NCBI RefSeq assembly: GCF_000230675.1
Contig: NZ_AGIK01000003.1
Location: forward strand, 186,001 to 250,000
Direction: 5' to 3'
DNA: 64,000 bases
From: Synechococcus sp. WH 8016
GTDB lineage: Bacteria > Cyanobacteriota > Cyanobacteriia > PCC-6307 > Cyanobiaceae
A model generated the notes under the pieces. It was not told the DNA's origin. It searched no databases and worked only from the letters and a program-made list of their open reading frames with translations. Shown piece by piece: positions 38,745-64,000 of the stretch; the stretch's first letter is position 1; each line of letters starts with the position of its first letter. Position numbers and translations under genes: made by a program.

Positions 38745-38903
38745 TTATTTTTCAGAAATGACGCGTGCTGTAGCAGCCTTTTGCATGAAGTAAAGGTCTA
38801 AAAGCTGTCCAGCTACTTCTTTAAGCTCATCCATATCGCTGGCCTGTTGGATAGCCCCCTGAAGCCGAAGCTTCTCGAATTGGAAGTGGAGAGGCAAACC
38901 CAT
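38745..38903 (-). CDS. 52-residue conserved-looking hypothetical protein
   Basis: ATG 38903 to TAA at 38745. Helical and typical of a real small protein: FQFEKLRLQGAIQQAS, then DELKEVAGQLLDLYFMQK. It is followed by the 66-residue gene on the same strand, 11 bases downstream. The name and function are unknown. Confidence 0.55.
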   Translation of the reverse strand: MGLPLHFQFEKLRLQGAIQQASDMDELKEVAGQLLDLYFMQKAATARVISEK

Positions 38904-39069
38904 GGCGAAGCAGTCGTTCCAATCGAATGTAAAGAACCATCAAGATTCAATTGGTAGTCATTTCTACTCAAAGCAAATCCCATGTCTCGGCCCATGGCCA
39001 TGCGCCATGGAGTGCAGCGCTAGCCGGGTCGCGCCGCAGCAAACACGGACTTTTGAAGGTGAGCTGAGA

Positions 39070-46647: not shown

Positions 46648-47778
46648 TTGTCCGCCAGCTCCTCATCGACGGGATCCACCCCGATCCGCTGGAGCGGCGG
46701 CAACGACCTGTTGCGTCTCTACTTGCAGGACATCGGTCGGGTGGACCTGCTCACCGCTGAAGACGAGGTGGTGTTGTCGCGCCTCGTGCAGCAATACGAG
46801 CGCCTAAAGCGCGAAGAACGTCAATTCGCCGAAGATCATCCGGCAATCGAACGGTTGCTATGCCTTGAGGAACTGCAGTTGAGAGAGGCGAACCATCTCT
46901 CTCACTGGCCCACAAGACAGGAATGGGCACGGGCTGCCGAGATGCCCTTGCAAGAGCTGAACCTGGCCCTCACCGAGGGCTATCAAACCTGGGCGGATCT
47001 GATCACCTCCGACAGCCGTGACCTGCAACGGCGTCTGCGTGAGGGGCGGAAGGCCCGTGACCGGATGATCCAGGCCAATTTGCGCTTGGTGGTGGCCGTA
47101 GCGAAGAAGTACCAGCACCGAGGCATGGAGCTGCTGGATCTCGTCCAGGAAGGCACGTTGGGGCTGGAACGGGCGGTCGAAAAGTTCGATTCCACCCGAG
47201 GCTTTCGCTTCAGTACCTACTCCTACTGGTGGATTCGCCAAGGCATCACCAGGGCGATCGCCACCCAAAGCCGCACCATCCGCCTCCCCGTCCACATCAC
47301 CGAAAAGCTCAACCGCATCAAACGGGTGCAGCAAGAAATTGCCAGCACGGAGGGGCGCACCGCTTCGGTGACAGACCTAGCGAGGGAGCTCAGCGTCAGC
47401 GAAGACACCGTGCGTCAAACCCTGGCTCGCGTCCCCCGTTCCGTCTCCCTGGAAACCAAGGTGGGCCGGGATCAAGACACCCAGCTTGGAGAGCTCCTCG
47501 AAGACGAGCACGCCACACCAGAGCAGACCCTCACCCGTGATGCACTCCACGACGATCTCGAACACCTGCTGGATGAGCTCACCCCGAGGGAAGCCACCGT
47601 GATTCGCTGTCGCTTTGGACTTGAAGACGACACTCCCCGAACCCTCGCTCAAATCGGCGAAGACATGAACCTCTCCCGCGAGAGGGTGCGTCAGATCGAA
47701 ACCCGAGCCCTTTTGAAGCTGCGCCAACCCCAGCGCCGCAGCAAGGTGCGCGATTACATCCAAGCCCTGGATTCCTAA
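46648..47778 (+). CDS. Sigma-70 family RNA polymerase sigma factor (group 2-like)
   Basis: 376 residues from TTG 46648. Region 1.2 is LLRLYLQDIGRVDLLTAEDEV; region 2 has NLRLVVAVAKKYQHRGMELLDLVQEG and STYSYWWIRQGITRAI; regions 3 and 4 end with the LSRERVRQIETRAL recognition helix. The lack of a long region 1.1 and the cyanobacterial organisation point to a non-primary sigma that switches promoters under stress or with light or nitrogen. Specific regulon unknown. Confidence 0.93.
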   Translation: MSASSSSTGSTPIRWSGGNDLLRLYLQDIGRVDLLTAEDEVVLSRLVQQYERLKREERQFAEDHPAIERLLCLEELQLREANHLSHWPTRQEWARAAEMPLQELNLALTEGYQTWADLITSDSRDLQRRLREGRKARDRMIQANLRLVVAVAKKYQHRGMELLDLVQEGTLGLERAVEKFDSTRGFRFSTYSYWWIRQGITRAIATQSRTIRLPVHITEKLNRIKRVQQEIASTEGRTASVTDLARELSVSEDTVRQTLARVPRSVSLETKVGRDQDTQLGELLEDEHATPEQTLTRDALHDDLEHLLDELTPREATVIRCRFGLEDDTPRTLAQIGEDMNLSRERVRQIETRALLKLRQPQRRSKVRDYIQALDS

Positions 47779-61547: not shown

Positions 61548-61591
61548 GAGTATCAAAACAAGAGGAACGACGTTTCAACGCCGGAGTTCGA

Positions 61592-61634
61592 AAGGTACCG
61601 ATCTGAAGAAAGAAGCTCCTGTATCAACAAAGAC
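61592..61634 (-). promoter_or_regulatory. Candidate NtcA-activated promoter of urtA
   Basis: Minus strand: GTC-N8-TAC at 61634-61621 (one mismatch to GTA-N8-TAC), 23 bases, then TACCTT at 61597-61592 as a -10 of the TAN3T type. This is the class II layout of cyanobacterial NtcA promoters. The predicted leader is about 40 bases. Confidence 0.5.
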
Positions 61635-61663: not shown

Positions 61664-62266
61664 TCAATTTGGTATCTGTTGCAACACAAAGGCTTCCACA
61701 AGATCGAGTCCTTCCCCATTTCGAAGGTTGGTAAAGCACCAGGGTCGATCCCGCCGCATCCTCAACGTGTCCTGTTCCATCACGGCTAAGTCAGCACCAA
61801 CAAGGGGAGCCAGATCAATCTTGTTAATCACCAATAAATCGGATCGTGTAATGCCAGGACCGCCTTTGCGAGGAATCTTGTCCCCAGCCGCTACATCAAT
61901 CACATAAATACAAAGGTCGACTAATTCGGGGCTAAAACTGGCCGCAAGATTGTCACCTCCGCTCTCCACCATCACCAAATCAAGCCCTGGGAACTGACAT
62001 TCCAGTTCACCCACAGCCGCTCGGTTGATGGAGCAGTCTTCTCGAATCGCCGTATGCGGGCACCCTCCGGTTTCAACCCCACGGATGCGCTCAGGCTCTA
62101 AGGCACCTGAACGCGTCAGGAATTGGGCATCCTCTTGGGTGTAAATGTCATTGGTCACAACCGCCAATTGCAGGCGGTTGCGCAATCTCCTGCACAGCGC
62201 TTCCACGAGCGCTGTCTTGCCTGAGCCCACCGGCCCGGCGATGCCAAGCCTGAGTTTGCTGCTCAT
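61664..62266 (-). CDS. ureG: Urease accessory GTPase UreG
   Basis: 200 residues. P-loop [12 protein letters not shown] at 11-22, [13 protein letters not shown], and the metal-binding [15 protein letters not shown]. Hydrolyses GTP to deliver nickel to urease with UreF, UreD and UreE. Shares one base with the ureF stop. Third gene of a leftward ureEFG unit. Confidence 0.96.
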
Positions 62267-62934
62267 CAGCTCCGGAACAAACGTGAATACAACTCAGCAT
62301 GCGCCAACTGGGCCAACCCCGCACCAGCACCACCACACCAAAGGGTGTACGGGTCTTGATCTTTCAAAACAGATGCCTGTTCACGAATCATCGGCAACAG
62401 CTGCTGCTGGATCCGTTGAGCCGTAGTGGGACCCAGCGGCACCAAGCGAACCGCTGCACTGAGCTGATTCGCAACCCAACCGTAGAGATAACCCTCCACC
62501 ATCTCCAACTCAGAAATCTTCAACGACAAAGCAGCCCAAGCCCAGGCCGCCGGCCAAGCCAGCACCACCGGCTGAGGCAATGGATGTCCAAGATCAACCA
62601 TCAATTGCAGCAAAGAACCGCCCATCTGTCCTTGCTGGGCACGCACCTCAGCCGACTCCCTCAAAGCCAACAACCACCCATCCAAAGACATCAACTCGCT
62701 GGGCATCTCTGACCTTTCTTGCTCCCAGTGTTGAAGCTGGACGCGCAATGGATTTAACGCCGCAGCCTCCAACCTCAGGGCACCCCTTTGAAGCTCCGCT
62801 TCAATCCAATGTTGGAGATCTAATTCATCAATCAATGAACCATTCTGGATCAAAACTTCAAGACCCTCGGAATAGCTAAAAGCGCCAACGGGCAAGGCAG
62901 GACTCACCAACTGCAGCAATGCAAGCGATGTCAT
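62266..62934 (-). CDS. ureF: Urease accessory protein UreF
   Basis: 222 residues from ATG 62934 (the frame opens at 62988). [21 protein letters not shown] at the N terminus is diagnostic for UreF. It acts as a GTPase-regulating partner of UreG on the urease apoprotein. It overlaps ureE by four bases (ATGA). Confidence 0.94.
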
Positions 62935-63398
62935 GCGTGCTGATGGCCGATGTAAGCACCGCCTTCTGGCATGAAGGGACGGCAACACCGTGTCACCTTC
63001 AATCCGCGACCGTTAAGCATGGTGGCGAGGACGGAGTCGTTGAGCAACAACAGCTCATGCTCATGCAACTCAAGAGCCACATGACGATTTCCTAGGTGAT
63101 AAGCAGCTTCAAGCAATGCAAGCGGCGTTGCTGCCTCCACTCGCAACAACTCCTCAGGAGCCGCAGTCACCAGCACATGCACCTGATGATGCGCATCGGT
63201 GAGGCGATCACCTGGTGTTAACGGGCGCTCACGCGGCAGCTGCAACAACACGTCTCGACCACACACTGTGCGACGACGTCCGCGCAGCACCGTGCGCTGA
63301 TCCGCACTCAGCGGCAACTCCATGGCCGCCGGGGTGGCGTCCGGCAATGGCTCCTCAGACAAGAGGCGATGGTCCAACACGATCAAGCCAACATCCAA
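62931..63398 (-). CDS. ureE: Urease accessory nickel chaperone UreE
   Basis: 155 residues. LEAAYHLGNRHVALE is the diagnostic segment for UreE, and [11 protein letters not shown] at the C terminus has a short His motif rather than a long poly-His tail. Supplies nickel to UreG. First of ureEFG; a perfect NtcA-type box lies 62-75 bases upstream. Confidence 0.93.
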   Translation of the reverse strand: MDVGLIVLDHRLLSEEPLPDATPAAMELPLSADQRTVLRGRRRTVCGRDVLLQLPRERPLTPGDRLTDAHHQVHVLVTAAPEELLRVEAATPLALLEAAYHLGNRHVALELHEHELLLLNDSVLATMLNGRGLKVTRCCRPFMPEGGAYIGHQHA

Positions 63399-63459
63399 GG
63401 GTTCAGACAGCCAAAGAGATCACACAACAAAGACTGCCCAAACAGCACACTTTTATTTG

Positions 63460-63473
63460 GTAGTGCTTGCTAC
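63460..63473. promoter_or_regulatory. Perfect NtcA-type palindrome between ureE and ureD
   Basis: GTA at 63460-63462, eight bases, TAC at 63471-63473. For ureE the centre lies at -41.5 to a start point near 63425, leaving a 27-base leader. For ureD it would put +1 at the ATG itself. I do not see a clear TAN3T -10 in either direction. Confidence 0.6.
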
Positions 63474-63507
63474 AGAGCTAAGCAGAGTTGGCGTCGAGCG
63501 TGCGTAG

Positions 63508-64000
63508 ATGCATCGACTTGACCCATGGCACGGCACCTGCAACCTGCTGTTTGCTGAAGGCCGCAGCGGCAGTCAATTTCAGGGGGGCTGCACCGCGCCC
63601 CTTAAGTTAATGCGCGCCGGGCGGGGGAAGAACGGGCGCTGCGAGCTGCCACTGCTTCACACCGCTGGCGGTCTCGTGGGGGGAGATCAATTGAGCATCA
63701 ACCTCAGCTTGAAATCGAACAGTCGCTGCCTGATCACCAGCGTGGCCGCGCAAAAGGTGTATGGATCCGTCGGTCGCAGCCAACGCCATCCCCGAGGTGC
63801 ATGGGCCCGCCAACAGGTGGTGGCAGAGCTGGATGCAGAGAGCGATTTGGAGTGGCTACCCCAAGAGCTTGTGCTCTACGCCGACGCTCTGTTTGAGCAA
63901 AACCTCAGCGTCACCTTGCCGATGGATGGATCCTTTCTCAGCGCAGAAATTGTGCGTCTCGGGCGCACTGCCGCAAACGAAACCTTGGGGCGGGGGTGCT
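63508..64000 (+). CDS. ureD: Urease accessory protein UreD (5' part, cut by window end)
   Basis: Incomplete: starts at ATG 63508 and runs off the window. A TAG immediately precedes the ATG, which fixes the start. Residues such as GGCTAPLKLMRA, LPLLHTAGGLVGGDQLSIN and CLITSVAAQKVYGS match UreD, the scaffold that binds urease with UreF and UreG. Structural urease genes probably follow outside the window. Confidence 0.92.
   Translation, partial: MHRLDPWHGTCNLLFAEGRSGSQFQGGCTAPLKLMRAGRGKNGRCELPLLHTAGGLVGGDQLSINLSLKSNSRCLITSVAAQKVYGSVGRSQRHPRGAWARQQVVAELDAESDLEWLPQELVLYADALFEQNLSVTLPMDGSFLSAEIVRLGRTAANETLGRGC

Follow-up and report, generated by a model that had tools for sequence, protein, structure and literature searches.

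The ureE–ureD junction

The window, i.e., the entire stretch of 64,000 nucleotides analysed, ends in two divergent urease operons, ureEFG on the minus strand and ureDABC on the plus strand. Between them lies an NtcA-type palindrome with a candidate −10 hexamer on either side. The features are as follows, from left to right.

61664..62266, minus strand: ureG (TIGR00101, 324.8 bits, cut-off 204.2)
62266..62934, minus strand: ureF (Pfam UreF, 2.9e-32)
62931..63398, minus strand: ureE, first gene of ureEFG (NF009756 UreE, 198.6 bits, cut-off 138)
63424, minus strand: predicted ureEFG transcription start, placed from the −10 position; a leader of about 26 nt would precede the TTG at 63398
63431..63436, minus strand: predicted −10 of ureEFG, CAGTCT (CAN3T), 23 nt from the palindrome
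63460..63473, no strand: NtcA-type palindrome GTAGTGCTTGCTAC, proposed shared activator site (exact match and conserved position in family junctions)
63496..63501, plus strand: predicted −10 of ureDABC, GAGCGT (GAN3T), 22 nt past the palindrome and 6 nt before the ATG
63508, plus strand: predicted ureDABC transcription start at the A of the ureD ATG (leaderless), placed from the site centre 41.5 nt upstream and the −10 ending 6 nt upstream
63508..64000, plus strand: ureD, first gene of ureDABC, which leaves the window (Pfam UreD, 2.9e-31 on the in-window part)

In locus L155, the full-length ureD encodes 296 amino acids and is followed by ORFs of 100, 107, and 569 amino acids, which we read by eye as ureA, ureB, and ureC. 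An in-frame TAG at 63505–63507 excludes a ureD start earlier than the ATG at 63508, and the next in-frame ATG of ureD is codon 35. The TTG at 63398 is the first possible ureE start, and the true start may be later. To the left of the palindrome, the minus-strand order is ureE, ureF, ureG, and then urtA. NtcA is encoded in the genome (TIGR03697, 378.8 bits, cut-off 244.95).

The initial annotation had placed a perfect GTA-N8-TAC between ureE and ureD in a divergent gap of 109 bases, and both points were confirmed: GTAGTGCTTGCTAC is an exact GTAN8TAC at 63460–63473, and 109 bp lie between the TTG at 63398 (minus strand) and the ATG at 63508 (plus strand). The distance from the centre of the site (63466.5) to the A of the ureD ATG is exactly 41.5 nt. 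Published NtcA promoters have their site near −41.5, and the accessible parts of that work include examples with the −10 element 22 nt away, one of which has a GTG-N8-TAC site (PMC3898017). Set against the published TAN3T at about 22 nt, the ureD side has a spacing of 22 nt and the hexamer GAGCGT, whereas the ureE side has a spacing of 23 nt and the hexamer CAGTCT, both hexamers being without the first T. The junction combines one activator-type site between divergent genes with correctly spaced −10 cores on both sides, and the predicted starts at 63508 and 63424 would be 84 nt apart.

Counts of the palindrome were dropped as a measure of its worth, as they proved uninformative. Exact GTAN8TAC occurs three times in the 64-kb window against 0.93 expected, a number reached in 5 of 100 shuffles. 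When one mismatch is allowed, 64 places are found against 62.7 expected, which is chance level, and the whole genome (2.69 Mb, 16 contigs) contains 109 exact places. At the window's own density, about 0.0045 exact matches would be expected in this gap. A single GTAN8TAC match is weak evidence alone, and a site conserved together with both flanking −10 cores is stronger evidence. Because the bare palindrome is common in the window and the genome, the case for function rests on conservation.

The second exact match of the window, with TACATT 22 nt on, occupies 38926–38967 on the minus strand (GTAGAAATGACTAC in the minus-strand reading), and the third lies at 47213–47226. Sequences like GTAGAAATGACTAC were among the matches listed in 8 of the 31 genus genomes, this genome included. 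The site precedes a 52-aa ORF (38745–38903, minus strand) that has no Pfam or NCBIfam match at E 0.001 and possibly encodes a small NtcA-controlled protein.

Conservation of the site and its flanking cores

Matches to ureE were found in 227 of 300 family genomes, and the junctions come from 150 of these 227. The first set comprised 111 distinct junction loci (113 minus the copies L001 = L006 and L003 = L011); a scan of named genome contigs supplied 3 junction loci. Genus labels were assigned by hand, and the label of L002 is a guess. In many relatives, oriented with ureD to the right, the site ends in TTGCTAC or similar; GAGCGT or a variant comes next, and then the ATG.

Sites were scored with a weight matrix of 14 columns, trained on 31 loci (L002 and L004–L033) which themselves belong to the first set. 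As the matrix covers the 14-base site alone, the flanking −10 cores constitute a separate test. A score of at least 5 was obtained at 68 of the 111 loci; the other 43 are without such a site and were kept out of the −10 tallies. At L059 and L072 the matrix misplaced the site, and these two loci are counted in the 68 and excluded from the 66 well-placed sites.

Thirty-two junctions remain when redundancy is removed (<70% identity), L059 among them. All 32 have a NANNNT core at a spacing of 22 or 23 nt on the ureD side, and 31 of 32 have one on the ureE side, where the sole miss is L059 with its misplaced site. Shuffled sequences gave a mean of about 2.2 of 32, with maxima of 9 and 8. In the offset control, single offsets of 18–21 and 25–27 nt gave 0 and that of 24 nt gave 1 on each side, with at most 6 of 32 for other pairs of offsets. 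All 66 well-placed sites have the ureD-side core, and 65 have the ureE-side core at 22–23 nt (L060 is without it). The initial annotation had considered the ureE spacing suitable for class II activation, a view that appears to fit this conserved geometry. The ureD-side hexamer is GAGCGT in 32 of the 68 scored loci, and the ureE-side hexamer is CAGGCT, CAGGGT, or CACGCT in 42 of the 68, the core being mostly CAN3T.

A caller free of the matrix, which takes GT-N10-AC upstream of ureD with NANNNT at 22–24 nt on both sides, identified the pattern in 86 of 149 junctions, a collection that includes close relatives and is unthinned. GT-N10-AC is present in 95 of these junctions and absent in 54, and the two-sided pattern is absent in 63. 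When the triple of spacings was moved, those starting at 12–19 or 25–28 gave 0 and those starting at 10, 11, or 29–33 gave 1–2, while triples overlapping 22–24 gave 1 to 80 of the 149.

A palindrome present by chance and without function would be in keeping with the 109 such places in the genome and with a window count barely above chance. It is, however, contradicted by the two-sided spacing tests and by the conservation of the site with both flanks across the 12 genus labels of the first set, and we assign it a negligible probability.

In the 31 genus genomes, GTAN8TAC followed by TAN3T at 22 nt occurs at 53 places versus 22 places at a spacing of 16 nt, numbers that are not independent since the genomes are related. 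A reversed-pattern control gave more matches than the pattern at both spacings and is not support; because it contains ATG...CAT and is unmatched in composition, nothing was rested on it.

Among the 68 scored sites, 16 are GTAN8TAC, 44 are GTG-N8-TAC, and 8 are neither. The exact palindrome is a minority form among relatives, and "perfect" is not the usual state. This replacement of GTA by GTG in the ureE-proximal half, together with three further matches to the NtcA model in the genome, all weaker, might point to a CRP-family protein other than NtcA as the user of the site. Yet the site in the window is an exact NtcA consensus, and the top NtcA ChIP region in Anabaena, as given in the accessible text of that study, is a GTG-N8-TAC site, which documents the GTG form for NtcA (PMC3898017). 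Moreover, the accessible parts of the literature name urea transport genes as NtcA targets and, for some cyanobacteria, urease as well. Use of the site by another member of the family seems very unlikely.

Not every genus carries the site. None of the 16 loci of genera g18, g56, and g4 (Prochlorococcus-like) has a site scoring at least 5, and several other genera of the first set likewise have no scorable site. Palinska (2000) reportedly described an NtcA site ahead of ureEFG in Prochlorococcus PCC 9511. In genus g18 (L107–L113), the ureE and ureD matches are only about 35–54 nt apart by homology, which is too short for a two-sided promoter design. In L106 (G003:C1:1506278-1506694), from a 1.8-Mb genome of genus g4, the ureE match holds one in-frame TAA.

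For a hold-out, the prediction was written beforehand and 40 junctions were hand-picked from 58 listed, unfetched places. Two loci yielded no ureD (L117, which ends at the contig end, and L145), leaving 38 junctions, 14 of which have a site score of at least 5. In these 14, the prediction held for the ureE side in 13 and for the ureD side in 6, with an ATG at 6 or 7 nt in 4. In seven of the eight junctions that failed on the ureD side, the core sits at 24 nt, an after-the-fact rescue; the eighth, L143, is without either side. Both cores at 22 or 23 nt are found in L118, L121, L123, L126, and L127 as well, although these loci score below 5. We take the hold-out as partial support, in that the two-sided design stands, with a ureD spacing of 22–24 rather than 22–23 nt.

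The difference between the sides could mean that the site activates ureEFG only, with ureDABC transcribed from another promoter of its own. The ureE core is kept at 22–23 nt and did better in the hold-out (13 versus 6 of 14), and a normal leader fits the ureE side. The ureD core is nevertheless equally conserved in the first set, and in seven of the eight hold-out failures it is found at 24 nt. In Synechococcus BL107, furthermore, ureD, ureA, and ureC follow the pattern of known NtcA targets: in the results accessible from that study, their transcripts drop after filtration alongside ntcA, nirA, urtA, amt, and glnB (PMC5063861). This joint drop is co-behaviour and not a nitrogen test, and the text of the BL107 paper makes no mention of ureE, ureF, or ureG. 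On balance, activation of ureEFG only appears improbable.

The start of ureD

An in-frame ATG lies 6–7 nt past the ureD-side −10 in 61 of the 66 well-placed sites. A transcript would start 6–7 nt after a −10 hexamer, from which a leaderless or almost leaderless ureD message is predicted. The initial annotation had doubted the ureD side because class II spacing would start its message at the ATG. Of this objection the geometry stands, at 41.5 nt, and the supposed difficulty appears to be the conserved design, since many relatives keep the arrangement. Given the ureD-side core at 22–24 nt in many relatives and the ATG 6–7 nt on, the site most likely serves both operons, and a ureD start at or adjoining the ATG looks like a conserved arrangement.

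Leaderless transcripts would not be universal among the junctions. The nearest downstream in-frame ATG is 19–20 nt past the core in L042, L045, L077, L082, and the hold-out locus L124; in another hold-out locus, L139, the nearest start is 21 nt past the core, and L069 has none near.

The five loci with the ATG at 19–20 nt also bear on a different role for GAGCGT, namely as a ribosome-binding site instead of a −10, with ureD having a leader and a start site upstream. GGAGCGTGAGG precedes the ATG in many relatives, and 25 of 68 loci carry a Shine–Dalgarno-like core (GGAG, AGGA, GAGG, or AAGG) some 16 to 5 nt ahead of the ATG. The other 43 are without such a core, yet they retain the A and T of NANNNT, and in the five loci mentioned the core is still 22 or 23 nt from the palindrome. 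The hexamer thus keeps its distance from the site, which speaks for a promoter element and not for ribosome binding. The Shine–Dalgarno reading of GAGCGT was checked and is disfavoured; we hold it to be unlikely.

For Prochlorococcus MED4, the accessible part of one report states that its authors expect some leaderless mRNAs, and also that urease and urea transport genes go up under nitrogen deprivation (PMC5607370). In the accessible text, neither this report nor the BL107 study gives start sites for the junction.

A putative two-way NtcA promoter

We consider it likely, from the conserved arrangement, that the palindrome is a single NtcA operator serving a two-way class II promoter, with a ureD mRNA that has no leader or almost none. 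When nitrogen is limiting, the palindrome would be bound by an NtcA dimer working as a class II activator in both directions, toward ureDABC via the −10 GAGCGT (63496–63501) and toward ureEFG via the −10 CAGTCT (63436–63431). The ureD transcript would begin at the ATG or within 1–2 nt of it, whereas the ureE transcript would have a leader of about 26 nt. The two polymerases would share one dimer and need overlapping stretches of DNA, so that probably only one side is occupied at a time; predicted starts 84 nt apart are probably too close for two polymerases at one dimer, which makes mutual exclusion likely. NtcA binding, activation, the start points, leaderless translation, and mutual exclusion are all inferred.

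A more far-reaching idea, which we put forward tentatively and regard as rather doubtful, is that the junction may form a near-symmetric switch in many genera. One polymerase per dimer would then give a fixed or alternating share of the urease subunits (ureABC, from a leaderless message) and of the accessory proteins for nickel insertion (ureEFG), and the leaderless start might be a selected outcome of fitting both promoters into about 100 bp.

The Anabaena class II promoters of urtA, nirA, ntcB, and glnA resemble the junction in that, in the accessible description, GTAN8TAC or a GTG variant lies about 41.5 nt from the start and the −10 about 22 nt from the site (PMC3898017). Here, in contrast, one site is flanked by two −10 cores, which are GAN3T and CAN3T instead of TAN3T. 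A brief remark in the same ChIP-seq study ties NtcA sites to two divergent starts and offers a precedent, although symmetry and conservation are not among the features described in the parts of the paper that were accessible (PMC3898017).

Single CRP sites in Escherichia coli provide a parallel, as one CRP-family dimer serves both divergent operons, which is what we propose for NtcA; an accessible section of one report lists 11 natural cases of a single CRP site with divergent promoters and cites El-Robh and Busby 2002 (PMC3105977). The present case differs in involving NtcA and nitrogen, not CRP and carbon, in its near-symmetric class II spacing in many genera of one family, and in one transcript that is predicted to be leaderless. 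Since single CRP-family sites common to divergent promoters are known, the urease junction would be a new conserved case, with NtcA, of a known kind. Among the literature matches listed, with most subscription journals outside the scope, none contained a two-sided or leaderless reading of the ureE–ureD junction.

Divergent transcription from one compact element, with polymerase competition once it is activated, has been described by Warman et al. 2026, as far as the accessible text goes (PMC12825309). In their case a symmetric −10 is itself the shared part, whereas at the urease junction this part would be the activator site, with a separate −10 for each direction. In E. coli bidirectional promoters, activation of one direction tends to repress the other via such competition, according to the same accessible text (PMC12825309), and by this precedent two-way activation from one NtcA dimer could be unequal.

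Picocyanobacteria use urea as a recycled source of nitrogen. If the proposed promoter is correct, one operator would place both urease and its nickel-insertion machinery under the direct control of nitrogen status, and sharing it would explain the shortness of the ureE–ureD gap. The junction would also offer a compact natural system for polymerase competition at a shared activator and for leaderless translation in cyanobacteria.

In a field study, the accessible text suggests that the behaviour of urtA is perhaps not explained by NtcA alone (PMC7170224), and in the main text of a Red Sea start-site paper neither urea nor urtA occurs. Ahead of urtA in the window, a candidate NtcA site (GTCTTTGTTGATAC, 61621–61634, minus strand) has TACCTT 23 nt on and then about 41 nt to the ATG at 61550; with this site, urtA would have its own promoter downstream of ureG.
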